Source: a virus
DNA: 54,035 nt
IMG/VR virus record: IMGVR_UViG_3300012988_000006
Span: 1-54,035 of that record
Reading direction: 5' to 3' (one strand)
Under the pieces are notes generated by a model, which saw only the letters and a list, made by a program, of their open reading frames with translations, did not search any database and was not told the origin of the DNA. Positions 2,852 through 44,803 of the stretch are shown here, piece after piece. The position numbers and the translations under genes were made by a program. Numbering within the stretch: the first letter of the stretch is position 1; every line of letters starts with the position of its first letter.

Positions 2852-3530
2852 CACCTGCCCCGTCTGCCGCCACGCGGCGCACGGCAAGAGCTGTCCCAAC
2901 GCTGCGAGCGACAACGACTGTGGCTGCAAGCACGACACGCTCACGCTCAAGCAGGCGCCGGCGGCCGTGCCGCAGACACGCCGGAAGGCAACGCAGCGGT
3001 GGCAGCTGAAGGTCCCGGACCACACGGACCCGAAGTACGAGGAGCTGAACGCGTGGTTCTACTCCACGCCGAACGCTGCCAAGGGTCTCAAGGGCAGCAT
3101 GATCGACTACATGCGCAACCTCGACGGCTCGCACAACGGCCTGAGCTGGGGCGCGGCGGCCGTGCGCAAGATGAAGCTGCGCTGGGGCCTCGCCCTGCAG
3201 CTCGTCAACCCGCGCAGCGTGACGAAGATGATCGACGGCATCATCAGCGACGTGGCCGGCATGATCGTTGCCATCTACGAGGAGGAGACTGGTGCGCCGC
3301 AGCGCCTCCTCCGCTACACGCCGGAGGAGCCGCCGTGGGGTGAGATGACCGAAGAGCAGAGGCAGGCTAGCACGGCGGAGAGGCAACGCCTCTACGACGA
3401 GCACAAGCTCGCAAGGAAGCCCTGGGACAAGGCTCTCCAACGCGTCAACGCACTCATCGCCCCGCACTACACAAGCATCTCCGGCTACCGAGTCGGAGAC
3501 GAGATCAGCATCAAGAAGGAGACACCATGA
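2844..3530 (+). CDS. Unknown protein with N-terminal Cys-rich zinc-ribbon-like segment (228 aa)
   Basis: The start ATG at 2844 is preceded by GAGGGAGA. Residues 5-8 (CPVC), Cys17, and Cys26 and Cys28 in a CGC form a cysteine-rich N-terminus that could bind zinc. The remainder is a soluble, mixed-charge protein with an alpha-helical middle (SWGAAAVRKMKLRWGLALQL) and a basic C-terminus. No family is recognised. It sits in a tight run of overlapping genes between a micro-ORF and a DUF6378-like gene (ATGA overlap at 3527), within the replication operon, so a DNA-metabolism or nucleotide-related role is an inference from position only. Confidence 0.75.
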   Translation: MSDTCPVCRHAAHGKSCPNAASDNDCGCKHDTLTLKQAPAAVPQTRRKATQRWQLKVPDHTDPKYEELNAWFYSTPNAAKGLKGSMIDYMRNLDGSHNGLSWGAAAVRKMKLRWGLALQLVNPRSVTKMIDGIISDVAGMIVAIYEEETGAPQRLLRYTPEEPPWGEMTEEQRQASTAERQRLYDEHKLARKPWDKALQRVNALIAPHYTSISGYRVGDEISIKKETP

Positions 3531-4057
3531 AGGAAGAGAAGGTCGACCTCGACGAGCGCCGCCAGGTCTACGGCGAGTTCGTCGACAACATGGAGCGCAC
3601 CGCGCTCATCTGGAGCGGCATCCTCGGGTTCGAGGTGAAGGACTACCACGTCCCGCTCATGATGCTCGCGTACAAGGCGTTCCGCTCGGCGCAGGCGCCG
3701 CGCTACAGCGACAACACGGACGACATCGAGGGCTGGCGTCAGGGCCTGCTGAAGGTGGTCGACGAGAACTACGGCGGCACGATCCAGGCGCGCGACGTCA
3801 CGAGCTACCTGGAGCAGGTGGCTGCGGAGAAGACGGCGATCCAGACGCAGCAGACGGACGACTACGTCCCGGCACCGGAGGACGCTGTCCGCCCGGACCT
3901 CAACGGCCAGTCGCAGGAGGCGGGTCACATCATGGACCAGTGGCTCCAGGCCCACAACGGGGAGTACCAGCCGTGCGAGCACTACGAGCGGCACCCGGCG
4001 CACACGTACGAGATCGCCAAGAAGCCCGGGAAGTACTACTGCCCGGGCGTCCGATGA
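3527..4057 (+). CDS. DUF6378-like phage protein (176 aa)
   Basis: Residues about 10-80 (VYGEFVDNMERTALIWSGIL, then VPLMMLAYKAFRS and a D-rich stretch ending GWRQGLL) match the pattern I know from the DUF6378 family, a small helical domain common in phage genomes with no established function. The C-terminal part adds a separate segment with two cysteines and several histidines (EHYERHPAHTYEI and KYYCPGV), possibly metal binding. The start ATG overlaps the upstream stop (ATGA). The stop overlaps the helicase start at 4054 by 4 nt, so it is co-translated with the SF2 helicase. Confidence 0.7.
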   Translation: MKEEKVDLDERRQVYGEFVDNMERTALIWSGILGFEVKDYHVPLMMLAYKAFRSAQAPRYSDNTDDIEGWRQGLLKVVDENYGGTIQARDVTSYLEQVAAEKTAIQTQQTDDYVPAPEDAVRPDLNGQSQEAGHIMDQWLQAHNGEYQPCEHYERHPAHTYEIAKKPGKYYCPGVR

Positions 4058-28274: not shown

Positions 28275-30254
28275 CTACGCGGGTACAGCAGTTGCAGGTG
28301 CTACACCCGCAGTTGCAGGGGCAGATTGTACAGATTGCCCCCCTGACTGCCGCGCCAGGAGCTCCGCGACCGCCTCGGTGAGCACGGAGAGCTGCTTCGA
28401 CTGGGACTCGATCGCGGCCACGAACGCCTGCTTCTCGTTCTCCACGTCCTCGTCGGGCTGGTTGATGTTGGCCTCGATCGCCGCCTGCTCCGCCTTCTGC
28501 GCGCGGAACTGCTCGGTCTCCCCCTGCACGAGCAGCTCCTTGAGCTCCTTCGAGTGGGTCGCGCCGGTGAGCTCGATCTCCTTCTCGACGATGTAGAGCA
28601 TCGCGGCCGTCGCGTGCGCGAGCGCCTGCTGGTTGCCGGATGCCGCGAGCGCCGGCATGGCCTGGCTGAGGGGGACGAACAGCTGGTTCAGGATCCGCAG
28701 CTGCTTCTCGTCTTCCATCTCGACGAGGGACCCGGGGATCGCGCGGACGAAGTACTCCGTCGCGAGGTCCGAGAAGTCCATCACGAGCGTGCCCTCCTCC
28801 TTGGCAGGCTTCTCTCCCTCGGCGGGGGTCGCGACGAACAGCTCCGGGTCGAGCCCCGCCTTGAGCAGCTGCACTCGCGCGTCCGCCGTCGGCACGATGC
28901 TCTTGACGCTCTTGAGCTCCTGGAAGAAGATCGTCAGGGCGTACCCCGCGTATCGGCTGGCGAAGGACTCGATCGCCTTCTGGTAGTTGTTGGTCGTGAT
29001 GTCGACCATCGCCTGCTGCGCCTCGACGCCCTGCGGTGTCTGGCTCATCGCCCCGCCGGTGCCCTGCATCGCCATCTGCTGGTCTGCGGCGCCGATGAGC
29101 TGCACCATGTTGCCCTGGTTGGCTGTGGCGATCTGGTTGTACTGCAGCAGCGTCTGGCTGTTCTGCTCGAACGTCTCGAACTTTGCGTTCGGGTTGCCGA
29201 CCTGGATGAACTTGCCGGGGCCCAGGTTGGGGGTGCCGTTCAGGCCGGTGCCGAGGCCGATGATCATCGGGTTGATGTTGCGGTACCACATCTTCATGGC
29301 ACCGTTGAGCAGCAGATCCTGGAACTCCTGGCGGCCAAGCAGGAGCTCGACCTGGCTCTTGCCGAGGGGCTGCGACAGGTCCTTCTCCAGCACGAGGAAG
29401 AAGACCGGGTGCTCCTTCAGCGGGTGCTTGTTGGGCTCGATGCGGAGCAGCATCTTCGACCGGGTCTCGAACGTGAGGAACGGCTCGCCCGTGTTCGAGT
29501 ACCACGTCACGATCTCGTAGCCGTCGGGGATCTGGCCGCGCTTCTTCGACTCGTGATCCACGCTCTGCATCTCGCGCGGCGGGGGCGGGGTCTTCAGCAT
29601 CGCCTTCAGGGCGGCATCGTCCCAGCCCGCCAGGCCGATCTTGCTCTTGGCCTGGCCCTTGGTGAGGTAGCGGCGGACGAACACGTCGGTCGCCTGCCGG
29701 ATGTCGCGCGCGCCGGGCTCGGGGAAGACGTCGCGGTAGTGGATGTTGTCGTACTTGATGTACCACCCGTTCTTCGCGTCCTGCGCGAGCACAGGGATCA
29801 CGCAGTCGAACCCGAGAGTCAGGGCCGACTTCGCCGAGGCGAAGAGGCTCTGCTGCAGGTCGTTCGAGTACTGGTCGTCGCCGCAGATCTTGCTGCGGAG
29901 GATCCAGCGGCTGAAGATGCCGTAGACGTCGTCGTCGTCGAACTTGCTGATGACCTCGAAGTTCGGAGTGTGCTGCACGAGGTTGCGCGCCATGCGGCGG
30001 ATCATGCCGGCGGTCTCGCCGGAGCTGATGTTGGGCAGGTCGGGCTTCTCGCTGATGACCTCCGCCGCCGCGATCTTCTCGAGCTTCCAGTAGTTCGCGA
30101 CTCGAGCGTCCATCTCGGTCTTGTACTTCAGGTACTTGAGGTTGAGCTCCTGCGCGCAGTCACTGATCGCGTGGAACTCGAGCACACCGTCCCGCCCCTC
30201 GGAGCGGTTGGTGTACCACTGTTCGACCTTAGTGATCGGCTCTGCTACTGCCAC
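28275..30254 (-). CDS. Portal protein (659 aa)
   Basis: Size, acidic/helical composition and the central portion (LLLGRQEFQDLLLNGAMKMW, GLNGTPNLGPGKFI) fit a podovirus-type portal, the 12-mer at the capsid vertex through which DNA is packaged. The C-terminus is a coiled-coil/crown-like region (ELKELLVQGETEQFRAQKAE) with an Ala/Pro tail. It starts at GTG 30254, overlapping the end of the giant gene by 10 nt (CAGTGGCAGTAG), and is followed by the capsid gene. A candidate -10 TACAAT lies 43 nt upstream, inside the giant gene. Confidence 0.88.
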   Translation of the reverse strand: MAVAEPITKVEQWYTNRSEGRDGVLEFHAISDCAQELNLKYLKYKTEMDARVANYWKLEKIAAAEVISEKPDLPNISSGETAGMIRRMARNLVQHTPNFEVISKFDDDDVYGIFSRWILRSKICGDDQYSNDLQQSLFASAKSALTLGFDCVIPVLAQDAKNGWYIKYDNIHYRDVFPEPGARDIRQATDVFVRRYLTKGQAKSKIGLAGWDDAALKAMLKTPPPPREMQSVDHESKKRGQIPDGYEIVTWYSNTGEPFLTFETRSKMLLRIEPNKHPLKEHPVFFLVLEKDLSQPLGKSQVELLLGRQEFQDLLLNGAMKMWYRNINPMIIGLGTGLNGTPNLGPGKFIQVGNPNAKFETFEQNSQTLLQYNQIATANQGNMVQLIGAADQQMAMQGTGGAMSQTPQGVEAQQAMVDITTNNYQKAIESFASRYAGYALTIFFQELKSVKSIVPTADARVQLLKAGLDPELFVATPAEGEKPAKEEGTLVMDFSDLATEYFVRAIPGSLVEMEDEKQLRILNQLFVPLSQAMPALAASGNQQALAHATAAMLYIVEKEIELTGATHSKELKELLVQGETEQFRAQKAEQAAIEANINQPDEDVENEKQAFVAAIESQSKQLSVLTEAVAELLARQSGGQSVQSAPATAGVAPATAVPA

Positions 30255-33200
30255 TGGTTCAGCCTTCCGCGTTCGCTGGAGAAACGCTCTCTCCTAATTG
30301 TAGAGCGTCGAATGATGGGGTTACTGGTATTGACGAAGGGGATTCCGCGGTTGTACGTCACGTCGCCGCGCTCCGGCCCGTTCAGGCGGTAGCTCCAGCC
30401 GCCGCCTCCACCGCCGCCGCCGCCGTAGCCGCCGGAGCGGCTGTAGCGGGAGCGACCGTAGACGCCGTCGGCGTAGTTGGTCCAGCTCGGGTGGTTGACT
30501 GCATCCAGGACTTCCTGGAAGTTCTTGTCGATCAGCTCCTGCAGGTCACTCATCGTCGGGTTCGCGACCGACGAGTGCTCGCGCTCGAGGTTCCGCATGC
30601 CGGTGTTGACGTTGGCGAGGGAGTCCGTCGAGTTGAGACGCGAATCCTGGTCGAGTCCGCCGCCGAGCTGGCCGGAGTTGTAGGTCTGGAGCGGGGCCTG
30701 GCCGAAGAAGTTCTCCAGCGAGCTCCGCGCGATGCCAGTCGCCCACGGCATCCCGTCCGGGCCGGTGACGTAGGTCGTGTTCAGCTGCTTGTACGTGGTC
30801 GTCGGGTTGTAGCTGATGTAGTCGCTGTTGAAGATCACGTCGTTCAGCGGCGTGGCGTACGGGTTCGTCTCGCTGCCGTAGAACGTCTGGCGCACCTGCT
30901 CGTCCGCGACGTCCTTGCTGAGCCCGAGGTCCAGGTACTCCTGGGTCAGCTTCGCGGTGAGCTCGTTCGCGATCTTCTGGCGGTCCTCGTACGACAGGTA
31001 CAGACCCTCCATCGCCGGGTCTCCGGGGCGCAGCGTCCCCATCTGGAGGCCCTTGATGACGGCCATGCCGCCCTCAGTCGTGAGGACCTCGCGCTGCTGC
31101 TTCGGGTCCCACATGCTCATGATGACGCTGATGGCTTCGTTCTCGGTGAGCTCGGTCCCGTCGACCTTGCGCGTCTTCACGGCCATGTTGTACCGGATGT
31201 ACTCGCTGTCTGCGAGTCCGGTGAAGAGGCTGGTGAACAGCGCGAGGCTCGCGCGGTTCTCCGTGAGCGTCTTGATCCGGGCCTCGGTCGGACTGGCCTG
31301 GAGGGATCCGACCGCAGGCTCGCCGGCGTCGTTCACAAACTGCTGCAGCGCGTCGGTCTTCATCGGCTGCCCGTTGTCGTCGCGCTGGATCTCGCCCGTG
31401 TCGTTGAGGTCGGCAAGGGTGTACGGGTCGCGGTCGTACTGGTCGGCCGCCGTGTAGATGCTGTTGACGAACGAGTTCTCCAGCAGCATGCGCTCCAGCG
31501 CCATCACGCCGTTGATCATGAAGCCGAAGCTGTTCACGAGGTCGACCGGGTTGCCCCGGCTCTCCGCGTCGCGCGCAGCGTTCTCGAGCTCGGTCGCGAT
31601 TCGCGCGGCCTCGTCGAAGCCCGTCTCGTTGATCAGCGGCATGCTGCCGAGGGCGTCCTCGAAGCCCCAGAGGACGTGGGCGAAGTTGCCGGTCGTCAGG
31701 TAGTTGTCGATGCCCATCATCGGCGAGATGAACTGCTTGAGCGTCCAGTGCAGCTGCACCATGCTCACCGGCTCGCCGTCCTGGTCGACGCCGACCTTGT
31801 ACATCTGCTTCAGCTGCTCCGCGAACGGGAACCAGTCCGGCAGGTTGTCGAGGTACAGCGCGTCGGCGTTGCGCCAGTCGTTGACGATCTCGCGCGGGTC
31901 GTACACCCAGCCGGCGCCCTCCGCCTGAGCTGCACGGCGGCGACGCTTGTCCTCATCGTCCTCGCCGTTCAGCCCGAGGCTGCCGGTCAGCAGGCCGAGA
32001 CCCATCAGGGCCGTGTGGGTCAGGCCGCTCTGGATGACGGCGTCGGCGAGGTTGACGTTCTCCATCGTCTCCGCCACGAAGTCGATGTCGTGGATGGCGG
32101 CGTTGTAGTCCTTCGACTCGCCCTTCAGCCAGGCGCGGGCGTGGCCGAGGCCCTTCTTGATGGACGGGCTGTTCAGCGCGACGGCGGAGACGGCGTTGAG
32201 GGCCTGCAGGCCGAGCATGTTCGTCGCCGCGTTGCTCGCGTAGTTGAAGAACAGGAACGGCAGCTTGAGCCCGAGCGTCGCGGGGATGTTCACGATGACG
32301 CGGGGGTTGTGCGTCAGCGGGTCGATGAAGTTCTTCATCAGGAGCAGGCTCAGGACGGTGGGCTTCAGGCTCCGAAGGTTCGCGATGCGGTTGATCGCGT
32401 ACTGGTGGAGCTCGCGGTAGTTCTTCTTGACGAACTGCGGGTCCGTCTGCAGCCCGTTCAGCAGCTGCTCCGGCGTGAGCGTCATGCGGCTGCCCATGCT
32501 CATGGCGTTGCTCATGACGCTCATTCGGTACCGCTTCGCCATCATGGACTGCTTCATGCCGTACGACGGGTCCTGCCAGCGGCCAGCGATCCCCGCGAGC
32601 TTCGCCGAGGTCCGCTCGGCCCAGCCCGCGTTGTGCAGCTTCGCGTGGACCAGGATGTCCTGGTTGATCATGCCCATGAAGCCCTGGTTCTCGCCGAGAG
32701 CCCGGTCGACGGCTGCCGCGCGCTGCTGCAGGTCCTTGCCGCCGACGAAGGCGTCGCCGGTGAGCGTGTCCTTCACGACCTCCAGGAAGTTCTTGATGCC
32801 GCTCTCGACCGGGGCCGTGACGTACAGCCACGGGTTGAACATGCCGTTCGCGGCGCGCATGTTGGTGAGGATCCGCATCAGGGCGTTGCTGCTGGTGCCC
32901 TGCGTGACGAACCGCCAGCCGCCGGAGCGGAGCTGCTCCATCGTCAGCGGCACGGGCTCGGGGATCGAGTTCTTCTTGCGGTACGCCGCGAAGCGCTTCT
33001 GCGCCGCGTCGAGACCCGAGCTGGGCGGGTAGTCGCCCTGCCACACGCCGCCGGAGAGCCGGCCACCGAAGATGCTGGAGATGGTGGCGCCGGCGTTCCC
33101 GATGTTGGCCGTCTGGAGCTGGGCCGAGCGGACGGGATCCATGCTCACCGGGAGGTTGGCGAACAGGTCGCCCATCTCGCGGAAGGTGTTCATGTATCCG

Positions 33201-36200
33201 TCTGCGGCCGTCTGGAACAGCGGCTCCGGGGGATTGCGGTTCGGGTTCAGCGCCACTAGGACGAAGTCCTCGAGGCTCTGTGCGACCGTGCCGTCGGCGC
33301 CGCGCAGCTGCCACTTGTTGCCGGGCTTGTGCGCCCGGGCGAGGAGCAGCACGTCGCTCAGCCCCATCATGCTCTGGCTCGCGCGGTCGACCGGGTAGCG
33401 GCCCTCGCTCAGCATGGGACGGATCCCGAGCTCGACTGCGTCCTTGAAGTCACGGAACGAGAACGAGCCGATGGTCGGGTCCTGGCCGGGCGCGGCTGCG
33501 GGGCGGCCGAGCCACGCGCGGACCCACGCGTCGACGCGGGAGGCGCTGGCCTCCGTGAGTCCCATGTCGAGCACGATGCCGTTGCGGAGTGTGGCGGCCT
33601 CCGCCTTCTCGGCGGTCGTCCACTCGCTCTCGTCTGCGGGCTGCTCGAACTGGATGCGGGCGTCGCGGTTGACCTCGAGAGCCACTCGCTCCGCCGGCAG
33701 CAGTTGCCGCGTCAGGGAGTAGGTCGGGACCTGGCGGAGCCGCTCGTTGTTCATCACGGCGAGCACGTCCCGAGCCGACTGGACCTTGGTGACGTTGGAG
33801 CGGGTGACGAACGCCTCCGTCTTCCGCAGGTCCTTCGCCCGGTACAGGTGCGCGCCGAGCGTCTCCTCGACCATCAGGGTCTGCTGGCGAGACGACGCCT
33901 CGGTGCGGTTGCGATCGCGAGACTGTGCCTTGAGCTCCGGGGTGTGCCCGGAGGTGTGGAGCTCGGCGAACTGCAGGTAGCCCTCGTGCGTCATCGACGC
34001 GTCCTTGTTCGTGACGAGGAACGTCCAGTCCTCCTTGAGCTGGTAGCCCGAGCCGTCCTCGAGCCCCGGCTTGTTGTTCAGCCGAAGGTTGAGCTCGTTG
34101 AAGATGTAGCCGCGCAGCGGGCTGCCGAGCGGCGCCTTGTCGAAGGTCGCCGTGAACAGCTCCGGCAGGCGCACCGAGACGGGGTTGTTGCCGACGCGGG
34201 GGGCGTCGAAGCCCGGGGCGCCCATCACGTCACTCGGGCGTGCCTGCTTGTACTGCAGGTACACGAGGGCCGCGAGCGTCACCTGGTCGGCCGGCGTTCG
34301 CTGCGCCACCGGCTTCGTCAGGACGGCGGTGTTGAACGTGCCGAGGCTGCCGGAGAGGCGGCTCATCGCGGCGGTGAACGCGTCGTCGGGGTTGAACAGG
34401 CTGTTGCGCAGGCTCTCGACGGCGGCCACGTCGAGCTCAGCCTGGCGGGCGAGCTCCTTGAACAGGTCTTGGATGTCCTGTCGAATCCGCTGCTGCTCCG
34501 CCGGCTTCAGGGCATCCCAGTCGGGGCGCGAGATCCCCAGCAGCGACTCCGCGTAGGCGGGGACGAAGTCCATCCCGAGGAAGGCGAACGCCTCGCGGGC
34601 GCTCACGATGAGCCCGTCGTAGTTCTCCTTGCTCGTGGTGTCCGCCCAGTGGGTCGCGAAGTTCAGGTCGAAGTTCCGGAGTGGCCCGAATGCGGGCACC
34701 TCGAGCCCCGCCTCCTCGAAGCCACCGCTGATGACGAGCTTCGCGCCGTTGCGCTGCAGGACCTCCTTGTTGCCGAGCTCGCTGATCGCGATGCTCTGGC
34801 GAACCGACAGGCCGTACCCGTTCTCCGGCACCCACGCGCGGATCTTGCCCGAGTACGCCGTCGCATTCTCCTGGGTCCGGGTGCCGTAGATCGCGACGTT
34901 GGAGGCGGCCCCGCCCTCGTTCGCCGGGGTGGCGAGCTGGGCCGAGAGCTCCGTCAGGTCACGGATCGGCTCGTGGCCGTGGCGGACGAGGATCAGGCGG
35001 TTGCCCGGCCCGACGAGCACGATGATGTCGCCGGTGCCGAAGTCGCTGCCGACGGCGGGGAGGCCGGTTCCCACGTCGTAGCTCGACGCGGCCCGACGGA
35101 GGGCTGCAGTGAGCTCGGCGCGAGCGTCGGCATCCTTGCGAGCCTGACGCGTGCTGACGCGGCGGCCCGGCTCCTTCTCCGGCGGGTTGATCGCGAGCAG
35201 GTGGTCGATCGTGCGGGGGTCGACCGCCATCGCGTTGAGCTGCTCGCTCACGAAGACGCGCTGCTCCTGCGTGGCCGCGACGCCGAACTGGTCGTACGCG
35301 TTGATCGGGGCCAGGCTGCTCGTGAGCACGAGCTCGCGCCCGTTCATGCTGGCGAGCTTGTTCGCCAGGGCCGCGTTCTCGGTGACCGACAGCGTGCGGG
35401 AGTGGAAGACCGTCGCGAACGAGTCCGGCCACAGCTCCTCCGTCTCCGTGAGGCGCGAGTACAGCGCCTCCAGGGTGCGGAAGTTGCTGGTCGGGTCGAA
35501 CGGGACGAACAGGCCGCGCGTGCCGGGCACCGTGCGATACATGATCTTGTCGAGGTCGGCCGGCGTCAGCGTGCGGCTGTCGATGGATCCGGTCGAGTCG
35601 ATGAGGGCAATGCTGACGCCCTTGTCCGCGAGCTCCCGCACGAAGGAGATGAGCTCCCGCTTCCGCTCAATCGGGTCCTGCGGGAACGTGTCGACGTGGA
35701 CGATCGCGAGGTCTCGGTGCAGCAGTCGCTGGCCGGCGGCCTCGTGGTCGCCCGGCTCCTGGCGGATGTCGTTCAGACCGCTGAGGACGCCCGCGACCCG
35801 GCCGCCAGTGAGCTTGCCGGGCTTGTACTGCACCTGCCACGCCGTACTGAACTCCTCGCCCTGCAGCGTCGCGTTCAGCTGGGCGAACGCCGTCTGCGCG
35901 GCGAGGTCCGAAGAGCGCGGGTCCGCGTCGATCGGAAGGTTCATGGCGATGCCGGCCTGGCGCAGCGCGTACTGCGGGACGCCGGTCAGGAAGTTCTGGT
36001 CTCGCTGCAGCGTCTCCATCGCGGCGACGCGCCGCTTGACGTACGGCTCGGCGTTGCGCTCGCGGCTCGCGTCGGGCCCGACGCGGTAGTTGCGCCAGGT
36101 CTCGAGGCGCCGCTTCTGGGCCTGCAGCTCCGCCGGGGTGTACGGCGGGCGGACGGAGCTCTGGCTCATCGCGCCTCGAGCCCCGACTCGGGTATTGAGC

Positions 36201-39200
36201 AGGTTCACCGTGGACCCTGACTCCACGATCCCCGGCACCTTGCGGAGCAGCGGGGTCAGCGAACCCGTCCAGACGGGAGTCGCCGCCGAGTCGATGGTCG
36301 GAGCCTCGAGCATCGGGCGAAGCAGGCCCTGGGTGTTCTGCTCGCCGAGCAGGGTGTTCAGCGTGCGGGGCGAGAGCGTGATGAGTCGAGCCGTCGAGCC
36401 CTCCGGCAGCGAGCTCGTCGCCTGGAGGCGGATCGCCTCGTCGGCCGACAGCAGCTGCTGGTTCCCGCTCGCGTCCGTGACGAGCAGCGCGTGCCGCATC
36501 TTCAGGTCCTTGAACAGGAAGTTGTAGCCCTTGGGGTCGAGCGGGCGGTGGCCGAGCGAGTGCGACAGGACGAACAGCGTCTTCGCCTTGAGCACCTCGT
36601 ACACGTCTCCCAGCTCCTCCAGGAGGGCGATGTCCTCTGCCGTGGGGAGCTTAGGGTTGATGAGCGCGTCGGTGCCCTTCTTGTTCGCCTTGAGGCTCGC
36701 GAGCTGCTCGATGACGTTCTCGCCGTCGATACCCATGATGCCGCTGGCGAGGAGACTCTCGTACGTGTCTCCGATGCCGTCCTCGCCCTCGAAGAACAGG
36801 TTGTTCGCCCACTCGGCGCCGGGGGGAAGGTCTGCCGGGTGGTAGATCGAGACCTGCACCGAGATCTCGGTGGCGTCGTTCGGGACGAGGGAGCCGAGGC
36901 TGGCGCTCAGCTCCTCCAGGCTCGTGGACGCGAGTCCGACGCGGCGACCGAGCGCCTCGCCCTGGAACTCGTGGTCCGGGCTGATGGCGGCGGCGTCGCG
37001 GAGGTTCGCCTGGATCGTGTTGCCGGCAGTGTCGCGGTACGTGACGACGATCGCGTCTGCGCCTCGGGCGAGGAAGCGGCCGTTGAGCATGGCGAGCGGC
37101 TCGACGTGACCGTCCTCGCCGAACAGCCCGTCCTCCAGCAGGCTCGGGAGCGCGTCTCCGCGCAGCGACGCTGCAGCGACGGGGCTGAGCGTGAAGACGC
37201 GGGGCTTGACCCCAGCGGACTCCGGGTCGAGGTAGGTGCGGTGCGTGGCGGCGATCGGGGCCGCGTACTTCGCGTACAGGATGCCCGAGCTCGAGACCTG
37301 GCGGCTGGCTCCGGAGGAGTCGATGCGGTTCTGCGCGTCGACACTCTGCCGCATGATCTCCGGCGTCCAGCGTCCCAGCTTCTCGGGGTCGACGACGCGG
37401 TTGATGAGCATCTCGAGCTCGTCCCGGTCGGTCAGCGTGAAGCGCTGGCCCTCGCCGATCGTGAGGTTGAGGAAGTCCTGGGCCGCGAGCAGCTCCGGCG
37501 ACTTCGGGTCGGCGATCGCGTCCGTGAGGTATCGGAACGACTGATCCATGTACCGCGCGTGGCCGAGGGTGTCACGCTTCAGGTCGCCCGTGAGAGCGTC
37601 CAGGACGCTCTCGTACGTCACGGTCTTCGGCAGGGTGCTCATCGCGACGCGAGTGCTCGTCACGCCGACGATACTCTCGGTGAACTTGTACGCGAGCACC
37701 GCGCGGGCCACGGCGTCCCAGCGCTCCCGGTTGAGCTCGGGGTCGGCCGCGAGCACCGGCACCAGGCCGGTCGCGTCAGTCGCGGTCGCCGTGGTGAGCA
37801 TGCGGACCTCGTCGCTCAGCGTGCTCTGCGCGATCGCGGGGTTGTTCTGCACCTCGTCGTTGAGGGCGCGCATGCGCTCCAGCGAGGTCGTCCCGTCGCT
37901 CCAGTCGATGAGGTACGCCTGGGCGTAGTCGCGGAACAGGTTGTCGTTGCCGTAGACGACGCGGGCGAGGATCTCGTCGCGCTGCTCGGCGGCCTTGATC
38001 TGCTCGGGCGACGCGTTCTCCGGCAGCACGCTGAGCGCGTTCGCGTAGATGCCGTCGCGGATCGTCTCAGCCACGTCGGAGCCGAACGACTCGTCGACCG
38101 ACAGGTTCTGGGAGAGCCGGCGCGTCGCGTCGGAGACCATCTTGGCGATCTCCTCGGGCTTGCCGTACGCGGCGGCGGCGCGGAGCATGCGCGCCACGTC
38201 CAGCATCGCCTCGTTCGCGATCGCCTCGAGCTCGTCCGGGGTGAGCGTGCGGCTCGCGGTGGAGGTGCGGGCGATCGCGAGGTCGGCGGCGTAGCGCTGC
38301 AGGCCGAAGTTGCGACCGTACTTGCTGGTCAGCGCGTCGATCTGCGCGGCGTAGCGGAGGACGTCCCGGTTCGCGTTGGACCCGAGCATCCGGTCGTACA
38401 CGGTGCCTTCGGTCGGCTCGCCGACGAGGTCGCGGAGGCCCATCTTGGTGAGGAGCTGCTGGCTCATCCCACCGTTCTCGAGCGTCTCGAACGCCGTGGG
38501 GAAGACGGCGGCGCGCAGCATCGGCCGGTACGCCGGGTCCTTCCACATCTCGAGGAACCGCTCGACGTCCTGGTACTTGTCGCGGCCCTGGCCGGCGTTG
38601 GAGAGGGCCGTCCACTCGATGATGCGGCCCTCGCGGTCGGCGAGGCGCAGGTTCTGCCCCGCGAACAGTCCCATGTCGGCGGCGGCGTCGTCGGCGTCCC
38701 AGGTCGTCATGGCTCCGAGCATCTGCGCGTAGCCGATGCTCTGCAGCGGCGAGTACCCGAGGGCCTGGATGTTGCTCAGGGTCTCGTAGTAGGTCGCGCC
38801 GAGGCCCTTGTCCGTCATCTTGCCCATGAACCCGCTGATCGCGCCGAAGACGCTGCGCATCAGGGTGCCGGGGCCGAGGGCGGGGCGCAGGCCGGCCGAG
38901 GTGGCGAACGAGCGCTGCAGCGTGTCGAGCAGGTGCAGGCTGTCGGATCGCTTGCCACTCTTGTACTGGGCGAGCGCGTGCTGCAGGGTCGTCATCAGGT
39001 CCGCGTCGTTGGCGTCGAGCTCGAGCTCCTGGCTCGCGTAGTCCTGGAAGCCGACCGCCGCGTTCGCGAAGTTGCGGATCGCGTCGCGGAGCTCCGCGCC
39101 GGGCAGCTGCTTGCTCCAGCCGCCGGCGGTGCGGGAGGGGTCGAAGGACGCCACGTCCCGGAACCACGCGAGCTGCGGCGCGCCGGTGCGGAACTCCTTG

Positions 39201-42200
39201 TTGACGGTCGCCATGAACTCCGAGAGGTCCTGGCTGGTGAGCAGGAGCTCCTGGAACCGGGCGAGGCGCGGCGGGTCGGTCTGCAGCTGCAGCACGAGCT
39301 CCACCATCCGGTCGTCGACCATCTTGGGGTTCGTCTCGTTGCCGAGCACGTTGAGCTTGGCCTGCAGCGTGTTGCGGAAGTACGTCATGACCGCCTGCTT
39401 CGGCGGCTGCGTCAGCATCTCCGCGAACCAGCGGGCCACGTTGACGCGGCCGTCGGGCAGCGGCTCGAACACGACGTTGACGATGTCGGTCGGCAGCAGG
39501 TCCGCGATGGTGCGGGCGAAGTTCGGGTTGCCGTCGAGCAGGCGCAGCACGCTGGCCACGTCGAGCTTCTTGATGCGGTGCAGCTTGGCCAGGTCGGCGA
39601 GAGCCCTGCGAGTGTACTCGAACGCGTTCTCCAGGCTCTTCTGCATGCGCTGGTCGCGCACGTAGTCGGTGGAGTTCGGGTTGATCTCGCCGGAGCGGGG
39701 GTCTGCGGAGAGCTCCTTGTCGGCGGCGGCGAAGATCGCGTCGATGCTCGTCTTGTACGCGGCCTCGTCCAGCGTGAGCTCGAGGAGCTCGTCGCGGGTG
39801 TACGGCGCGTCGTGGCGCTCACCGGCGTAGCGGTAGTCGGTGCGGGCGCGCTCGCGGAAGTCGCGCCGGGCGAACGTGTCCTTCGCCTTGTACTGGGCCT
39901 TGAGCTGTCCGACCGTCATCTGCGGGCCGAAGTTGTCGGCAGCGGCACCCATCACGGCAATGAGGGGCGTCGCGTCGAAGATCTCGACCCACGCCTCGTC
40001 GGCGTCGAGGCTCTGGATCAGCCCCGCCTTCTCCTCGTACTCGGCGATGTGGTCGACCTGGCGGGCGGCCTCGCGGAGGGCCCACTGGCCGAGGGAGATG
40101 AACCCGCCCTGGTCGGTCCACTCGGTGCCCTCGCGCGAGTAGTTGGGCATGGAGAGCTGCGCGACGACGTGGGCGCCGACGACGCCGTTGCCCTCGAGCC
40201 CGTACGCGCGGGCGACGCTCTGCAGGATCGCCATCGCTCGCTGGCTGATCTCGTCGCGGCTCAGGATCGACTGCCGGACGGAGACGCCGATGCCGCTCGA
40301 GATCGCCTCGTACCAGCTGACGAGGGCGTCCACCAGGTTGTCGGGGCGCTGGCCGGCGGTCTCGCTCGGGGAGCGGTAGTCGCCGTAGTGCAGGTGCTGC
40401 GGGGCGCGGAACGCGTCGTTGCCGACGGTGAGCTGGTGCATCGTGGCGCCCGGGGTGGCGGCCGAGATGCCCTCGCGCGTGGTCGACTGCCCGACCGGCA
40501 GGATCGGGGCGACCTCGCCGTAGTTGATGTCGGTCTCGACGCGGGCCGCGAGCTTGTTCTTGAACTTCTCCAGCATGCTGAACATGTGCTGGTCGATCGC
40601 CATGTAGACGCTGCTCATCGGCGGGATCCCGAGGCCGTTGCCGCGCTCGCCGAGGCGGATCACCTCGTCGGACGCCTGCGTGTTCAGCTTCTGGAACAGG
40701 TTCTGCTTGGCGTCCACGACGCCGCGACGGAGCTCGTCGATCGTCTCGTCGACGATGGTGTCGATGTTGGGGACGGTCGCGAGGTTCGTCTTCAGCCAGG
40801 CGCTCATCACCCGGAGGGTGGCCTCGGCGCTCTTGCTACCGACGCCGCCCTTCGCCGCCAGGCCGAGGCGGTCGATGATGAACTCCTCGGTGTCGCGGGT
40901 GCCGATCTTGACGGAGCCGTCGCGCATGCCGAGCGCGTTCAGGCCGAGCCGCAGCGCGCGGTACGCGTCGTCCTCGATCTCGATCGCGACCTGGACGTGC
41001 TGGCGCACCATGTCGCCGTCGAAGTCGCCGTCGATCATCTTCAGGATCGCGTGACTGACCTTCAGCAGGCCCTGCCCGCCGTCGAGCGTGTCCTGCAGGG
41101 AGACCTGCGGCATCAGCATCTGGAACGAGCCGGCGCTGTTGTTCGGGGAGCGGCTGAGCAGCACGCCGACGGCCTTCGCGTACAGGCTGCCGGTGATGAC
41201 GTCGCCCTCCTGGACGACCGAGTCCCACGCGACCTGGATGACCTCGTTCGCGTCGCGCACGATCTGGGCCTGGCGCTCCGGAGTCGCCGACACGAACTCC
41301 CGCTGCAGCCGGTGCATCTGCTCCAGGACCATCGCCTGAGCCTCCGCGATGGGCTCGAGCTGCGGCGCCGGGTTGCGCTGGGCGATCTGGTCGCGCACGG
41401 AGTCGGCGTTGCTCTGGAGCAGGTTCACGACGGAGTCGAAGTCGCTCAGCACGACGTGGTTGGGGATGTCGCTGGACTGCAGCGAGCCGAGCGTGAACGT
41501 GCCCTCCAGGGCCGGGTTCAGGCTCCGCATCTCCTTGTCCTGCGTCAGCAGGGCGGCGTCCAGGCTCTTCTCGAGACCCACGTCGAACTTGACGGCCTCC
41601 ATCACCTGCTCGCGCGCCGCGCGCTCGCCGGCCTCGCGGAGCCCCATCGAGACGAGGGGCGGGGCGGCGGTCGCCTGGCGCTTCTGCTCCGGCGTCCAGC
41701 TGTCCCACTGCTCGCGGGTCGGCGGGGTGACGTTGTTCAGCTTGGCGATCTGCTGGCTCCGCAGGTAGCCCCGCTCGTTGGCGGAGTAGCTCCCGACCCG
41801 GGCGCCGACGCTCATGCCCGCGCCGGCGGCGGCGCCCTGCAGGTAGCTCATGATGACGTCGTTGCCGTCGGGGGTCCAGCCGTGGCTCAGGGGCTCGAGC
41901 ACCGACTGGGTCGCCTCCTCGAGACCCTCGCCGAACGCGTTCACGAGCGCCGTCTTCGCGAGGTTCGTGCCGCCCTCGATGTCCTTCGCCGCCTGGTACA
42001 GCAGCTGGTTCGCCTGCTGAGGGCTGATCGCGCCGCCGTGCTGCGCCCGCATGATCTGGGTCTGCAGCTTCGCGCTGGCCCACATCGTCGCCTCGCTCGG
42101 GGCGAGCATCGTCATCGTGGTGCGCGGGGTGCCGACGACCTGGCCCGCCTCGTCCAGGTAGAACTGCTTGCCACCGATGCGCTCGGTGCGGACGGCGCCC

Positions 42201-43513
42201 TCCGGCATCGTGCGGTTGAACAGGCTGAGCCGGCTCGCGTCGTCGACCGTACCGAGCGCCGCGCGGTCTGCGCTGGTGACGGCACGGGCGATGCCTCGAG
42301 CCCCGGCGAGCTGGACGACGTCCATACCCACCGCGCCGATGGCGGCGAGCCACTGGCCCGGGTCGTCCGGCGCGTCGAAGTTGCCGATGCGGTCGTCGAA
42401 CCGCGCGCCTCCCTGGAAGGCGAGCTGCCCCGCGCCGCCGGCCACGGTCGCGCCCATCGCCGTCTTGAACGCGGCCTGGCCGACGGGGCTGGCGAACTGC
42501 AGGAGCGAGTCGCCGAGGGTCGCCGTGATCCCGAGGCCCGTGAGCCACCAGGGCCGCTCGGCGCCCATGTCGTAGTAGGCGCTCGAGTCGTCCCAGCCGC
42601 CGTTGGCGAGGTCCGTGACACCCTGCGTCAGGTTGGAGAGGGGGGTGAAGGCGCTCAGCGCCGCGCCGCCCCACTGCTGCAGGCCCGTGCTCAGGCCGCC
42701 CGCCGGGCCGAACTGCTCCGCGGCCATGCCCGTCTGCACGGTGGCCCGCGCCGCCTGGTCGACCAGGAAGTCCTTGTTGGCCGCCGCCGCCACGCCACCG
42801 ACCACGGCACCGGCTGCGATGCCGATCGGGCCCCCGAAGATGCCGAGCGCCGCGCCGCCCACGGCACCGGCGGCGATCGCCAGGGTGCCCTCGACGGCGT
42901 CGTCCCACTCGCTCTTCTGCTGGTCGATCTCGCTCTGGTAGGCCTTGCTGCCCTGGGCCGCCGCGACGTTGCGCGTGTCCTCCGCCGCCCGGGCGTCGAC
43001 CGCCTCCTTGACCGCGAGGGGGTTCGAGCGGAGCCGCTCGTACGCGTGCTTCTGCTCGTCCGCGCTGAGGCTCAGCTGCGCGAGCATCTGGTAGCCGGTG
43101 GCCTCGTCGTAGCCGCTCTCCGGGTCCAGCAGGTTGCCCCGGTAGGTGCCGTCCTCGTACACGTCGCCGAGGCGGATGTCTCGCCCGTCGGCGGCCTTCT
43201 GGCCCTCCCACGTCGCGACGCCGGTGAAGTCCTCGCTCGAGTACCAGTCGCCGATCGTGCCGGCGTCCAGCCGCGCGTTGCGCTGGTCGAACATCTTCTG
43301 GTAGAAGGGCGTGTTCCAGCCGTTCTCCGTGGAGCCGACCTGGCCGCCGCTCTGCCACTTCGGGAGTCGGGGCGCCGCCTCCAGGGCGAACCGGCTCCCC
43401 TGCCAGCCGCCGGCGGCGCGCGTCTCGTCCTGGGTGACCGACTGCTGCTGGGCTCCGACGGGGGCCGCGACCGGCGCCTCAGTAGCAAACCGGGATTCGC
43501 GCCAGCCGGCCAT
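30245..43513 (-). CDS. Giant virion protein (4,422 aa) with RNA polymerase beta-prime-like catalytic motif
   Basis: The ATG at 43513 is chosen because GGAG precedes it by 8 nt and a TATAAT box lies at 43556-43561; the frame stays open 56 codons upstream. Residues 784-790 VLLSRSP and 830-834 DFDGD (preceded by DG, followed by M and H839) match the RNA polymerase beta-prime double-psi barrel: VLLNRAP then NADFDGDQM and a histidine, with Asp830, 832 and 834 as Mg ligands. Other modules: glycine-zipper hydrophobic segment (about 211-245); long helical, Gln/Ala-rich body; hydrophobic stretches near 3751 and 3835; Gly-rich C-terminus (about 4360). The partner beta-like barrel with its two lysines was not found. 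It precedes the portal and is probably a virion ejection protein; its polymerase activity is inferred. Alternatives: degenerate barrel with a non-catalytic role. Confidence 0.8.
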   Translation of the reverse strand: MAGWRESRFATEAPVAAPVGAQQQSVTQDETRAAGGWQGSRFALEAAPRLPKWQSGGQVGSTENGWNTPFYQKMFDQRNARLDAGTIGDWYSSEDFTGVATWEGQKAADGRDIRLGDVYEDGTYRGNLLDPESGYDEATGYQMLAQLSLSADEQKHAYERLRSNPLAVKEAVDARAAEDTRNVAAAQGSKAYQSEIDQQKSEWDDAVEGTLAIAAGAVGGAALGIFGGPIGIAAGAVVGGVAAAANKDFLVDQAARATVQTGMAAEQFGPAGGLSTGLQQWGGAALSAFTPLSNLTQGVTDLANGGWDDSSAYYDMGAERPWWLTGLGITATLGDSLLQFASPVGQAAFKTAMGATVAGGAGQLAFQGGARFDDRIGNFDAPDDPGQWLAAIGAVGMDVVQLAGARGIARAVTSADRAALGTVDDASRLSLFNRTMPEGAVRTERIGGKQFYLDEAGQVVGTPRTTMTMLAPSEATMWASAKLQTQIMRAQHGGAISPQQANQLLYQAAKDIEGGTNLAKTALVNAFGEGLEEATQSVLEPLSHGWTPDGNDVIMSYLQGAAAGAGMSVGARVGSYSANERGYLRSQQIAKLNNVTPPTREQWDSWTPEQKRQATAAPPLVSMGLREAGERAAREQVMEAVKFDVGLEKSLDAALLTQDKEMRSLNPALEGTFTLGSLQSSDIPNHVVLSDFDSVVNLLQSNADSVRDQIAQRNPAPQLEPIAEAQAMVLEQMHRLQREFVSATPERQAQIVRDANEVIQVAWDSVVQEGDVITGSLYAKAVGVLLSRSPNNSAGSFQMLMPQVSLQDTLDGGQGLLKVSHAILKMIDGDFDGDMVRQHVQVAIEIEDDAYRALRLGLNALGMRDGSVKIGTRDTEEFIIDRLGLAAKGGVGSKSAEATLRVMSAWLKTNLATVPNIDTIVDETIDELRRGVVDAKQNLFQKLNTQASDEVIRLGERGNGLGIPPMSSVYMAIDQHMFSMLEKFKNKLAARVETDINYGEVAPILPVGQSTTREGISAATPGATMHQLTVGNDAFRAPQHLHYGDYRSPSETAGQRPDNLVDALVSWYEAISSGIGVSVRQSILSRDEISQRAMAILQSVARAYGLEGNGVVGAHVVAQLSMPNYSREGTEWTDQGGFISLGQWALREAARQVDHIAEYEEKAGLIQSLDADEAWVEIFDATPLIAVMGAAADNFGPQMTVGQLKAQYKAKDTFARRDFRERARTDYRYAGERHDAPYTRDELLELTLDEAAYKTSIDAIFAAADKELSADPRSGEINPNSTDYVRDQRMQKSLENAFEYTRRALADLAKLHRIKKLDVASVLRLLDGNPNFARTIADLLPTDIVNVVFEPLPDGRVNVARWFAEMLTQPPKQAVMTYFRNTLQAKLNVLGNETNPKMVDDRMVELVLQLQTDPPRLARFQELLLTSQDLSEFMATVNKEFRTGAPQLAWFRDVASFDPSRTAGGWSKQLPGAELRDAIRNFANAAVGFQDYASQELELDANDADLMTTLQHALAQYKSGKRSDSLHLLDTLQRSFATSAGLRPALGPGTLMRSVFGAISGFMGKMTDKGLGATYYETLSNIQALGYSPLQSIGYAQMLGAMTTWDADDAAADMGLFAGQNLRLADREGRIIEWTALSNAGQGRDKYQDVERFLEMWKDPAYRPMLRAAVFPTAFETLENGGMSQQLLTKMGLRDLVGEPTEGTVYDRMLGSNANRDVLRYAAQIDALTSKYGRNFGLQRYAADLAIARTSTASRTLTPDELEAIANEAMLDVARMLRAAAAYGKPEEIAKMVSDATRRLSQNLSVDESFGSDVAETIRDGIYANALSVLPENASPEQIKAAEQRDEILARVVYGNDNLFRDYAQAYLIDWSDGTTSLERMRALNDEVQNNPAIAQSTLSDEVRMLTTATATDATGLVPVLAADPELNRERWDAVARAVLAYKFTESIVGVTSTRVAMSTLPKTVTYESVLDALTGDLKRDTLGHARYMDQSFRYLTDAIADPKSPELLAAQDFLNLTIGEGQRFTLTDRDELEMLINRVVDPEKLGRWTPEIMRQSVDAQNRIDSSGASRQVSSSGILYAKYAAPIAATHRTYLDPESAGVKPRVFTLSPVAAASLRGDALPSLLEDGLFGEDGHVEPLAMLNGRFLARGADAIVVTYRDTAGNTIQANLRDAAAISPDHEFQGEALGRRVGLASTSLEELSASLGSLVPNDATEISVQVSIYHPADLPPGAEWANNLFFEGEDGIGDTYESLLASGIMGIDGENVIEQLASLKANKKGTDALINPKLPTAEDIALLEELGDVYEVLKAKTLFVLSHSLGHRPLDPKGYNFLFKDLKMRHALLVTDASGNQQLLSADEAIRLQATSSLPEGSTARLITLSPRTLNTLLGEQNTQGLLRPMLEAPTIDSAATPVWTGSLTPLLRKVPGIVESGSTVNLLNTRVGARGAMSQSSVRPPYTPAELQAQKRRLETWRNYRVGPDASRERNAEPYVKRRVAAMETLQRDQNFLTGVPQYALRQAGIAMNLPIDADPRSSDLAAQTAFAQLNATLQGEEFSTAWQVQYKPGKLTGGRVAGVLSGLNDIRQEPGDHEAAGQRLLHRDLAIVHVDTFPQDPIERKRELISFVRELADKGVSIALIDSTGSIDSRTLTPADLDKIMYRTVPGTRGLFVPFDPTSNFRTLEALYSRLTETEELWPDSFATVFHSRTLSVTENAALANKLASMNGRELVLTSSLAPINAYDQFGVAATQEQRVFVSEQLNAMAVDPRTIDHLLAINPPEKEPGRRVSTRQARKDADARAELTAALRRAASSYDVGTGLPAVGSDFGTGDIIVLVGPGNRLILVRHGHEPIRDLTELSAQLATPANEGGAASNVAIYGTRTQENATAYSGKIRAWVPENGYGLSVRQSIAISELGNKEVLQRNGAKLVISGGFEEAGLEVPAFGPLRNFDLNFATHWADTTSKENYDGLIVSAREAFAFLGMDFVPAYAESLLGISRPDWDALKPAEQQRIRQDIQDLFKELARQAELDVAAVESLRNSLFNPDDAFTAAMSRLSGSLGTFNTAVLTKPVAQRTPADQVTLAALVYLQYKQARPSDVMGAPGFDAPRVGNNPVSVRLPELFTATFDKAPLGSPLRGYIFNELNLRLNNKPGLEDGSGYQLKEDWTFLVTNKDASMTHEGYLQFAELHTSGHTPELKAQSRDRNRTEASSRQQTLMVEETLGAHLYRAKDLRKTEAFVTRSNVTKVQSARDVLAVMNNERLRQVPTYSLTRQLLPAERVALEVNRDARIQFEQPADESEWTTAEKAEAATLRNGIVLDMGLTEASASRVDAWVRAWLGRPAAAPGQDPTIGSFSFRDFKDAVELGIRPMLSEGRYPVDRASQSMMGLSDVLLLARAHKPGNKWQLRGADGTVAQSLEDFVLVALNPNRNPPEPLFQTAADGYMNTFREMGDLFANLPVSMDPVRSAQLQTANIGNAGATISSIFGGRLSGGVWQGDYPPSSGLDAAQKRFAAYRKKNSIPEPVPLTMEQLRSGGWRFVTQGTSSNALMRILTNMRAANGMFNPWLYVTAPVESGIKNFLEVVKDTLTGDAFVGGKDLQQRAAAVDRALGENQGFMGMINQDILVHAKLHNAGWAERTSAKLAGIAGRWQDPSYGMKQSMMAKRYRMSVMSNAMSMGSRMTLTPEQLLNGLQTDPQFVKKNYRELHQYAINRIANLRSLKPTVLSLLLMKNFIDPLTHNPRVIVNIPATLGLKLPFLFFNYASNAATNMLGLQALNAVSAVALNSPSIKKGLGHARAWLKGESKDYNAAIHDIDFVAETMENVNLADAVIQSGLTHTALMGLGLLTGSLGLNGEDDEDKRRRRAAQAEGAGWVYDPREIVNDWRNADALYLDNLPDWFPFAEQLKQMYKVGVDQDGEPVSMVQLHWTLKQFISPMMGIDNYLTTGNFAHVLWGFEDALGSMPLINETGFDEAARIATELENAARDAESRGNPVDLVNSFGFMINGVMALERMLLENSFVNSIYTAADQYDRDPYTLADLNDTGEIQRDDNGQPMKTDALQQFVNDAGEPAVGSLQASPTEARIKTLTENRASLALFTSLFTGLADSEYIRYNMAVKTRKVDGTELTENEAISVIMSMWDPKQQREVLTTEGGMAVIKGLQMGTLRPGDPAMEGLYLSYEDRQKIANELTAKLTQEYLDLGLSKDVADEQVRQTFYGSETNPYATPLNDVIFNSDYISYNPTTTYKQLNTTYVTGPDGMPWATGIARSSLENFFGQAPLQTYNSGQLGGGLDQDSRLNSTDSLANVNTGMRNLEREHSSVANPTMSDLQELIDKNFQEVLDAVNHPSWTNYADGVYGRSRYSRSGGYGGGGGGGGGWSYRLNGPERGDVTYNRGIPFVNTSNPIIRRSTIRRERFSSERGRLNQWQ
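30297..30302 (-). promoter_or_regulatory. Candidate -10 TACAAT before portal
   Basis: TACAAT on the minus strand lies inside the last codons of the giant gene, 42 nt before the portal start. No clear -35. It could give the capsid genes transcription independent of the 13-kb giant mRNA. Confidence 0.3.
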
Positions 43514-43555
43514 CGACCACTCCAACGCCGGGGGACGGGTCCGGCTACTCCCTCG

Positions 43556-43583
43556 ATTATAGCCAGTCCCCGGCGGGTTTCGC
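43556..43583 (-). promoter_or_regulatory. Candidate late promoter of the giant gene, GCGAAACC-N14-TATAAT
   Basis: TATAAT (43556-43561) lies 14 nt downstream of GCGAAACC (43576-43583) on the minus strand. The predicted start (about 43549) leaves a leader of about 36 nt with GGAG before ATG 43513. This is the head of the late convoy. Confidence 0.6.
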
Positions 43584-43599
43584 GCGCCCCGACTCGGCA

Positions 43600-43966
43600 C
43601 ACTCGCCGCCGGAGGGGCTAGCGATCCCCGGCCGAGGGTGACCCTCACTCCCGGGGAACTCGGCCCGGGACAGCCGGGCACGGGCCTCTACCCGGGAAAC
43701 ACGGGTGACGATCCGGGGTCGGGGCGGAATCCCCGGGGAAAACCGTTACGAGAGTTGAGAAGGTGCCGATGGTTCTCAGGAAAGCGGGAACTTTTTCTGT
43801 GGAGATCCATTAATACAATAGAAACAAATAACACACATCTATACCCCCCTATACATGTATATGTATGGGTATAGGTCAGTCATATAAATCATTGAATCGA
43901 TAGTATCAAGTGAATCAAGTATCAATTTTTGGATCAAGTCAATCTAGCCAAAGGAACTTCGTCACC
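43600..43966. promoter_or_regulatory. Divergent control region with AT-rich core, palindromes and ATCAAGT repeats
   Basis: No convincing gene lies between the giant gene and the first early gene. Bases 43600-43740 are unusually GC-rich with repeated CCCGGG-type strings, and 43800-43965 is markedly AT-rich. Within the AT-rich part, CTATACCC (43839-43846) and GGGTATAG (43867-43874) form an inverted repeat around TATACATGTATA (43850-43861, perfect palindrome). ATCAAGT occurs at 43905, 43914 and 43933, with ATCAATT at 43921. TATAAA at 43883 could be a plus-strand -10. The region is suited to early promoters, an operator or an origin. Confidence 0.65.
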
Positions 43967-44227
43967 ATGTCCGCATTTCAGCTCAATCTCCAGCCGTTGC
44001 TCGACGCCCAGGTCACCCGCATGCTTCAGGACCCCAAGGTCACTGAGGCACAGAACGCCATCCTCGACAAGATGATCATGGAAGTCACGGACGACATGCT
44101 CGTCAAGGTCGAGAACATCGGCAACAAGCTGGCTGAGCTTCGGGCAACACCCGAATCTCGGACTGCCAACGCGACACTCATCGCGTTCTACGAGCGTCAG
44201 CTCAACCGCCTCGCGGGTATCAAGTAG
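43967..44227 (+). CDS. First early gene, small helical protein (86 aa)
   Basis: The start ATG 43967 has AAAGGAAC upstream; an in-frame GTG at 43910 is a less likely start. The protein is charged and fully helical (PLLDAQVTRMLQDPKVTEAQ; then KVENIGNKLAELRATPESRT). No family recognised. It is alone on a transcript bounded by the AT-rich control region and a strong terminator, so it is likely expressed first after infection and may act on host transcription or on the adjacent iteron array; this is inference. Confidence 0.75.
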   Translation: MSAFQLNLQPLLDAQVTRMLQDPKVTEAQNAILDKMIMEVTDDMLVKVENIGNKLAELRATPESRTANATLIAFYERQLNRLAGIK

Positions 44228-44243
44228 CATCTCGCTACTGCCT

Positions 44244-44281
44244 AAACAGTCAGGTCCCAATCGGGACCTCTCTGTTTTTCT
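44244..44281 (+). terminator. Rho-independent terminator after the first early gene
   Basis: A stem AGGTCCC/GGGACCT (44252-44258 and 44263-44269) is extended by AAACAG/CTGTTT on the outside and followed by a GTTTTTCT tract. It ends the short early transcript. Confidence 0.85.
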
Positions 44282-44578: not shown

Positions 44579-44803
44579 CGTAACGACGTAACGAGTCGCC
44601 ACCTCAAACTTTCTCTACTCATCCCCTCCCAACTTTTGGGATGAAAAACTCGTTACGCTCGTTACGCCATGTCTCGCATGGGAAGGCGACTCGTTACGTT
44701 GCTCGTTACGTGCCCGTTACGTGACTCGTTACGCCTCGTAACTCGACGAGTTAGAGGCGTAACGACTCGTTACGTTTGGGGATTCGTTACGTTTTTCGTT
44801 ACG
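44579..44803. repeat. CGTTACG iteron array, candidate origin or regulator-binding site
   Basis: Nine exact CGTTACG copies on the plus strand start at 44651, 44660, 44692, 44704, 44715, 44727, 44768, 44785 and 44797; three inverted copies (CGTAACG) start at 44579, 44587 and 44758. Many neighbours are 9-12 nt apart, about one DNA helical turn. An inverted CTCGTAACTCG/CGAGTTAGAG element lies at 44736-44756. Elsewhere only isolated copies were noticed (43744, about 21214, about 22200). Confidence 0.85.

Follow-up and report, generated by a model that had tools for sequence, protein, structure and literature searches.

The 4,422-amino-acid protein encoded on the minus strand of the window (the whole 54,035-nucleotide stretch of viral DNA analysed here) is, with a probability of roughly 0.8, a virion-packaged, DNA-dependent two-barrel RNA polymerase, as judged from sequence profiles and predicted structures; RNA synthesis is the activity expected of it on this basis. 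Giant phage proteins that include a two-barrel virion RNA polymerase are already known, and the present protein is predicted to represent a new lineage of RNA polymerases that is highly diverged and has its domains in reverse order. The homology of both halves, the invariance of the catalytic residues, the reversed order and the conserved operon position were all computed. The short-tailed actinobacterial phages of this family probably carry their own transcription enzyme into the host within the particle. The actinobacteriophages with the gene form a widely isolated group, in which it takes up a quarter of the genome, and a function is offered here for one of the largest viral genes known.

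The giant gene and its family

The minus-strand frame covers positions 30245-43681, and the ATG at 43513 gives the 4,422-aa protein (30245..43513). This start, at M57 of the frame, is backed by the invariant 'MA' that opens the proteins of the relatives, and in the numbering used throughout, residue j ends at 43513-3(j-1). Orthologues of 4,434-4,494 aa were found in nine annotated phages. The protein of Arthrobacter phage MissAmericana is 42% identical over its whole length, and those of the Microbacterium phages Burro, Casino, Fede, Atraxi, Akoni, Mazun, Corn21 and Birdfeeder are 25-29% identical. Burro gp27, Akoni gp31 and their relatives (Eekayvirinae, Burrovirus), which are direct orthologues (25-30% identity), have been published as proteins of unknown function (PMC7302621, PMC8281081), the former paper describing the gene, which exceeds 13 kb, in cluster EK and in Burro. 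Some database records call the product a tape measure protein. The orthologues at L002:18831-32135 and in NC_048860 and NC_048801 bear this label, which is likely a misannotation, the characterised relatives Akoni and Burro being short-tailed podoviruses.

Single-sequence searches of Pfam, PHROGs and the PDB gave no match, for Pfam also with other single members of the family, whereas family profiles did give matches. Similarly, a first scan of viral contigs with one sequence was negative, but alignments as queries succeeded. Additional family members were taken from IMG/VR by such alignment-based scans. When diverged members were used as queries, only Microbacterium and Arthrobacter phages matched among 50,697 phage records. 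One further relative came from an uncultured Propionibacterium bin. The sequence filed there (L080:4017-17354) contains a giant gene with both DFDGD and GDK...K, and it is probably a phage contig within the bin.

Near the N-terminus, a glycine-rich hydrophobic stretch (residues 209-249; 42767..42889, minus strand), in which G220, G235, G239, N246 and D248 are kept in 32-33 of the 33 sequences, is a probable membrane-inserting segment. As measured by the density of invariant positions, the highest conservation is found in the C-terminal region (residues 3840-4422; 30248..31996, minus strand), which is probably the virion-assembly part. C-terminal glycine-rich matches of the whole-protein profile to Lassa and ebolavirus glycoproteins were discarded as low-complexity artefacts.

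The beta'-like half and its aspartate motif

A preliminary description of this DNA had pointed to a sequence in the giant protein that resembles the catalytic site of RNA polymerase beta'. The motifs lie as described, with VLLSRSP at residues 784-790, DGDFDGDM at 828-835, and D830, D832, D834 and H839 at the positions given. The distance from R788 to D830 is 42 residues, compared with 35 from R425 to D460 in E. coli beta'. In the alignment of 35 family sequences, the invariant positions (35/35) include R788, P790 and S796 of the RxP....GS motif (R788 to F797; 41123..41152, minus strand), D830, D832, G833 and D834 of the catalytic metal-binding motif DFDGD (residues 830-834; 41012..41026, minus strand), and also N756, R855 and G857. 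D828 varies among the relatives. H839 had been proposed as part of the motif, and this was not borne out, as most relatives have Q or another residue at the position. The giant protein has no DxDGD other than this conserved one, and the RxP....GS/DxDGD pair was obtained in none of 2,000 shuffles of the protein. DxDGD is kept as well in the relatives that were found via the DNA element described below and not via the motif.

The region of the double-psi barrel (residues 660-880; 40874..41536, minus strand) was compared with known polymerases by profile methods. A 29-sequence profile of this region was searched against 177,635 PDB sequences using hmmsearch. Ranks 1-3 were taken by beta' of the AR9 nvRNAP (7s01 and 7s00, E 0.007-0.008) and by PHIKZ055 of the phiKZ nvRNAP (7ogp, E 0.009), and the alignments coincide exactly with the catalytic motif. 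The comparison with an alignment of jumbo phage beta' by hhalign gave an E value of 1.3e-6. Scanning the entire 4,422-residue protein with a beta' profile that included E. coli produced a single match at residues 752-855 with a score of 68.3 (E 2.7e-7), while the runner-up scored 17.9 and the reversed or column-shuffled controls 14-19.

The half as modelled by AlphaFold, residues 440-1600 (38714..42196, minus strand), was predicted from 26 family sequences with a pLDDT of 72.5. The model contains strands at residues 672-677, 687-690, 784-789, 798-804, 816-819 and 835-838, a predicted layout that is compatible with a beta' barrel carrying a helical insert and in which the RxP strand comes ahead of the metal loop within one barrel. 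In a Foldseek search of 350,542 PDB chains, the best 50 matches, classed by chain label and length, were all RNA polymerase beta' chains, AR9 7s01_d among them, with a best E value of 9.5e-4; these alignments are long and of low TM-score. Profile and fold comparisons of this part of the protein had been suggested in the preliminary description, and those made here, with hhalign, hmmsearch and Foldseek, support the assignment of residues 660-880 as a beta'-like RNA polymerase barrel. The profile scan for the bridge helix and trigger loop gave nothing above control. A guessed trigger loop, 'TxGQTLxQxTxGSDAFR' at residues 1018-1048, gained no support from the profile scan and was set aside.

The beta-like half and its lysine motif

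It had also been suggested to look for a second barrel with its two lysines, and a beta-like barrel was found in the same chain. The beta-like half was modelled as residues 2100-3260 (33734..37216, minus strand; pLDDT 71.8), and its lysine barrel region corresponds to residues 2815-3010 (34484..35071, minus strand). This region contains a G-[DN]-K ... K motif (34739..34774, minus strand), whose K2916 and K2925 are the equivalents of K1065 and K1073 in E. coli beta and are invariant (33/33). Both lysines lie within 'GDK(8)K', followed by a conserved P and 'SK', a succession that resembles 'GDKMAGRHGNKG...DMP...PLGVPSRMN' of beta. K2962 (34628..34630, minus strand), aligned with the arginine of 'PLGVPSRMN', is present in 33 of 33 sequences.

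A beta profile was made from the lysine barrels of E. coli and jumbo phages and scanned over the whole protein. The best match, at residues 2902-2977, scored 28.2 (P 0.025 over the whole protein) and aligned both lysines, the P and SR/SK, while the runner-up scored 17.7 and the controls 11.7-17.5. Among 43 segments of 200 residues, the score was 27.9, versus 17.7 for the best segment that does not overlap. The beta-barrel profile alone gave no match to PDB sequences. From the model of residues 2100-3260, Foldseek retrieved second-largest RNA polymerase subunits at ranks 1-27 of the PDB matches, as classed by chain label and length, with a best E value of 0.016. These subunits were from Pol II, Pol III, archaea, Mycobacterium, vaccinia, ASFV, Francisella and AR9. 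Against BFVD, the best matches after the family's own entries were viral RNA polymerase beta proteins, from vaccinia, mimivirus and moumouvirus (E 1e-3 to 1e-2). With this Foldseek E value and profile P value, the beta half is less strongly supported than the beta' half.

Barrel order and comparison with known polymerases

Both barrels lie on one open frame of 4,422 codons, the aspartates before the lysines, with 2,084 residues from D832 to K2916. If E. coli beta' is placed before beta, a spacing of 1407-462+1065 = 2,010 residues is expected. The observed spacing fits this value, so that the chain resembles a beta' and a beta of full size joined in one polypeptide and flanked by ~440 aa on the N-terminal side and ~1,200 aa on the C-terminal side. 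The two halves were folded separately by AlphaFold, and the model pTM values of 0.41 and 0.50 indicate moderate confidence. The chain may be processed after translation. The predicted barrel order is beta' then beta, the reverse of that in QDE-1, gp66 and P23-45. Natural bacterial rpoB-rpoC fusions have beta first. The beta profile gave no match before residue 752, and a lysine barrel of the YonO/gp66 type just upstream of the aspartate barrel was rejected, as residues 440-760 are mostly helical in the AlphaFold model and show no beta profile match. No report of the reverse barrel order was found in the open-licence literature. If the enzyme is active, both orders of joining the two barrels are possible in the universal transcription enzyme, a point of relevance to the evolution of multisubunit and single-chain RNA polymerases.

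The giant protein had been likened to the single-chain two-barrel polymerases. This likeness stands insofar as both barrels are on one polypeptide, as in crAss-like gp66, YonO and QDE-1. However, these three are absent from the top profile or fold matches, and the nearest enzymes by profile and fold are multisubunit polymerases of jumbo phages and cells, not YonO or gp66. Throughout the single-chain clade (QDE-1, YonO, gp66 and P23-45), the lysine barrel is N-terminal to the aspartate barrel, whereas D832 precedes K2916 here. In QDE-1, the lysine and aspartate barrels occupy residues 690-792 and 916-1018, respectively (PMC1750930), and a connector from DPBB-B to DPBB-A is described in PMC10770324. 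In the cellular and jumbo phage multisubunit enzymes, beta and beta' are on separate chains, whereas the giant protein is a single frame. The beta' subunits of the AR9 and phiKZ nvRNAPs (7s00/7s01 and 7ogp), the best PDB sequence matches, have the RNPxxxxGS...K...DxDGD layout in common with it, but they are separate subunits of jumbo phages, and the giant protein is one chain in a 54-kb phage.

The virion RNA polymerase of phage N4 is a giant protein of about 3,500 aa with a T7-type right-hand fold. Packaging in the virion, as proposed for the giant protein, an origin in a podovirus and a gene placed among structural genes are common to the two. The folds are nevertheless unrelated, and the giant gene was reported to have no resemblance to that of the N4 enzyme (PMC7302621). 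The nearest precedent in function is gp96 of phage P23-45, a 5,002-aa tape measure protein that is an active virion polymerase with conserved AT-rich promoters (PMC10770324). Like the putative virion protein described here, gp96 contains an internal two-barrel RNA polymerase, a DFDGD (near residue 780 in gp96) and low similarity to known polymerases, and a conserved AT-rich element (in gp96, the promoter) goes with it. The differences are that the beta-like barrel of gp96 comes before the beta'-like one in a compact arrangement (fragment 1-1200), while the order is reversed and the barrels lie 2,084 residues apart in the giant protein, and that P23-45 is a long-tailed phage, while the giant-gene family belongs to short-tailed phages.

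Genome position and virion association

In every annotated genome examined, the giant gene opens the structural operon, is followed directly by the portal gene and faces the replication genes. A protein of ~250 kDa is present in Burro virions and was assigned by size as presumably the giant gene product or a processed part of it (PMC7302621). The band has about half of the predicted full mass, a size that might, speculatively, reflect cleavage between the halves. The operon position and this band, as assigned by its size, lend indirect support to packaging in the virion. A search of the open-licence literature found no work in which a virion RNA polymerase is connected with Microbacterium phages.

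The window encodes a family A DNA polymerase, an AAA ATPase and a PD-(D/E)XK nuclease, and no sigma factor was found in it. The earlier statement that the genome has no other RNA polymerase gene holds for PF00623 and PF00562, neither of which has a match in the window. The T7-type family PF00940 was not found either, in a search in which the control genomes also gave no match, so that this part of the statement has no positive control behind it.

Proposed mechanism and alternative explanations

In the following scheme, catalytic activity, injection, promoter and timing are what we infer. The giant protein would be made late together with the structural proteins and then packaged, the conserved C-terminal part probably anchoring the polymerase in the particle. 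It would be delivered with the DNA, and the N-terminal part (about residues 1-440) probably aids the membrane passage. The beta'-like half is predicted to supply the metal-binding DFDGD loop (D830, D832 and D834) and the beta-like half the two catalytic lysines (K2916 and K2925), and both barrels would fold together into one active site despite the separation of ~2,080 residues and the reversed order. The delivered polymerase would transcribe the first genes, possibly from the AT-rich element upstream of its own gene, and infection by these phages is predicted to begin independently of the host RNA polymerase. For the scheme in its fullest form, i.e., an active virion polymerase that is a near-full-size fusion with beta' before beta and whose own AT-rich promoter drives a single small pre-early gene, we would put the chances at about even.

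The likeness to RNA polymerase could be accidental, with DxDGD forming a chance metal-binding loop. DxDGD alone is a calcium-loop pattern that is frequent in unrelated proteins, and Pfam gave no RNA polymerase domain. However, unbiased profile and fold searches paired each half with the correct RNA polymerase subunit, and the catalytic residues do not vary. With two independent fold searches refuting it, this explanation is extremely improbable. The same two-barrel core occurs in PolD (PMC10770324), from which a DNA polymerase or primase of this kind might be considered in place of an RNA polymerase. This was rejected and can hardly be correct, as there is no PolD among the fold matches listed, the metal motif agrees in full with the DxDGD of RNA polymerases, and the phage already encodes a family A DNA polymerase.

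A degenerate RNA polymerase, no longer able to synthesize RNA and kept only as a virion part with a structural, DNA-guiding or host-polymerase-binding role, would agree with the very low sequence similarity outside the active-site motifs and with the lack of profile detection of the bridge helix and trigger loop. On the other hand, at 19-47% identity, no part of the region is better conserved than the active-site residues, which argues against degeneration, since decay would release them first, and we regard this explanation as unlikely. An active RNA polymerase might also act later, on late genes or in replication priming, with packaging that is incidental or does not occur. A single gel band from one relative makes up the virion evidence, which is consistent with such a role; against it stand the place of the gene, which in all annotated genomes examined lies within the structural operon and ahead of the portal gene, the conserved N-terminal membrane-like segment, and the known cases of N4, crAss-like and P23-45 phages, in which giant fused polymerases act as enzymes of the virion (PMC10770324). 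A later-acting enzyme is accordingly judged improbable, and a packaged polymerase that serves the first genes is preferred.

The AT-rich element and the adjacent early region

A conserved AT-rich intergenic element (43765..43909) has the core TATAGGGGGGTATA...TGTnnnnnTTGTTT on the minus strand and is a candidate promoter or origin. It is present in a single copy ~300 bp upstream of the giant gene, with a small gene on its other side. The lowest-GC stretch of the window is at this element (43,810, GC 0.30), as is the case in nearly all relatives examined. The mean pairwise identity of the core is 0.64, versus 0.13-0.25 in the flanks outside the AT-rich block; across the whole family, the element is kept in position and sequence, and the flanks are not. 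When 2.9 million viral contigs were scanned blind for the pattern GGGGGTATN{4,5}TGTN5TTGTTT, it was found in 24 stretches, including new relatives that keep DxDGD, and 18 of the 24 carry the giant gene within the DNA examined. The co-occurrence is evidence of conservation but not of recognition by the polymerase. There is no support for a hairpin promoter of the N4 type, as the stem-loop in the element does not exceed those of shuffled sequences in strength (z -0.9).

On the side of the early genes, the element is followed directly by an 86-aa gene (43967..44227, plus strand), which has a positional counterpart in all annotated relatives. The small genes of the relatives at this position have almost no sequence conservation. 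The 86-aa gene is a candidate pre-early gene. It is followed by a terminator-like hairpin (44252..44269, plus strand; z -6.9), and it stands alone between the AT-rich element and this strong hairpin (43967-44269). Further on, at 44579-44803, 11 copies of TCGTTACG occur in 225 bp, where 0.8 would be expected in the whole window. The same gap in relatives contains different but similar repeats, AGGTAACG in Burro and GCGTAACC in Akoni. The repeats at 44579-44803 are possibly iterons of a replication origin.

The AT-rich element may be a replication origin, or else a host-sigma promoter, and not the promoter of the giant polymerase, since it is a single-copy element at the lowest-GC point of the genome and adjoins the iteron-like repeat cluster, and since TATAAT is found at it in some relatives. 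We consider this a serious alternative, with a little less than an even chance. It is opposed by the position of the element directly before the small gene and then the terminator, and by the conserved AT-rich promoter of the P23-45 virion polymerase (PMC10770324). Elsewhere among the early genes, a 176-aa gene on the plus strand (3527-4054) matches PHROG families labelled phosphofructokinase (E 2e-12), a label that is doubtful.
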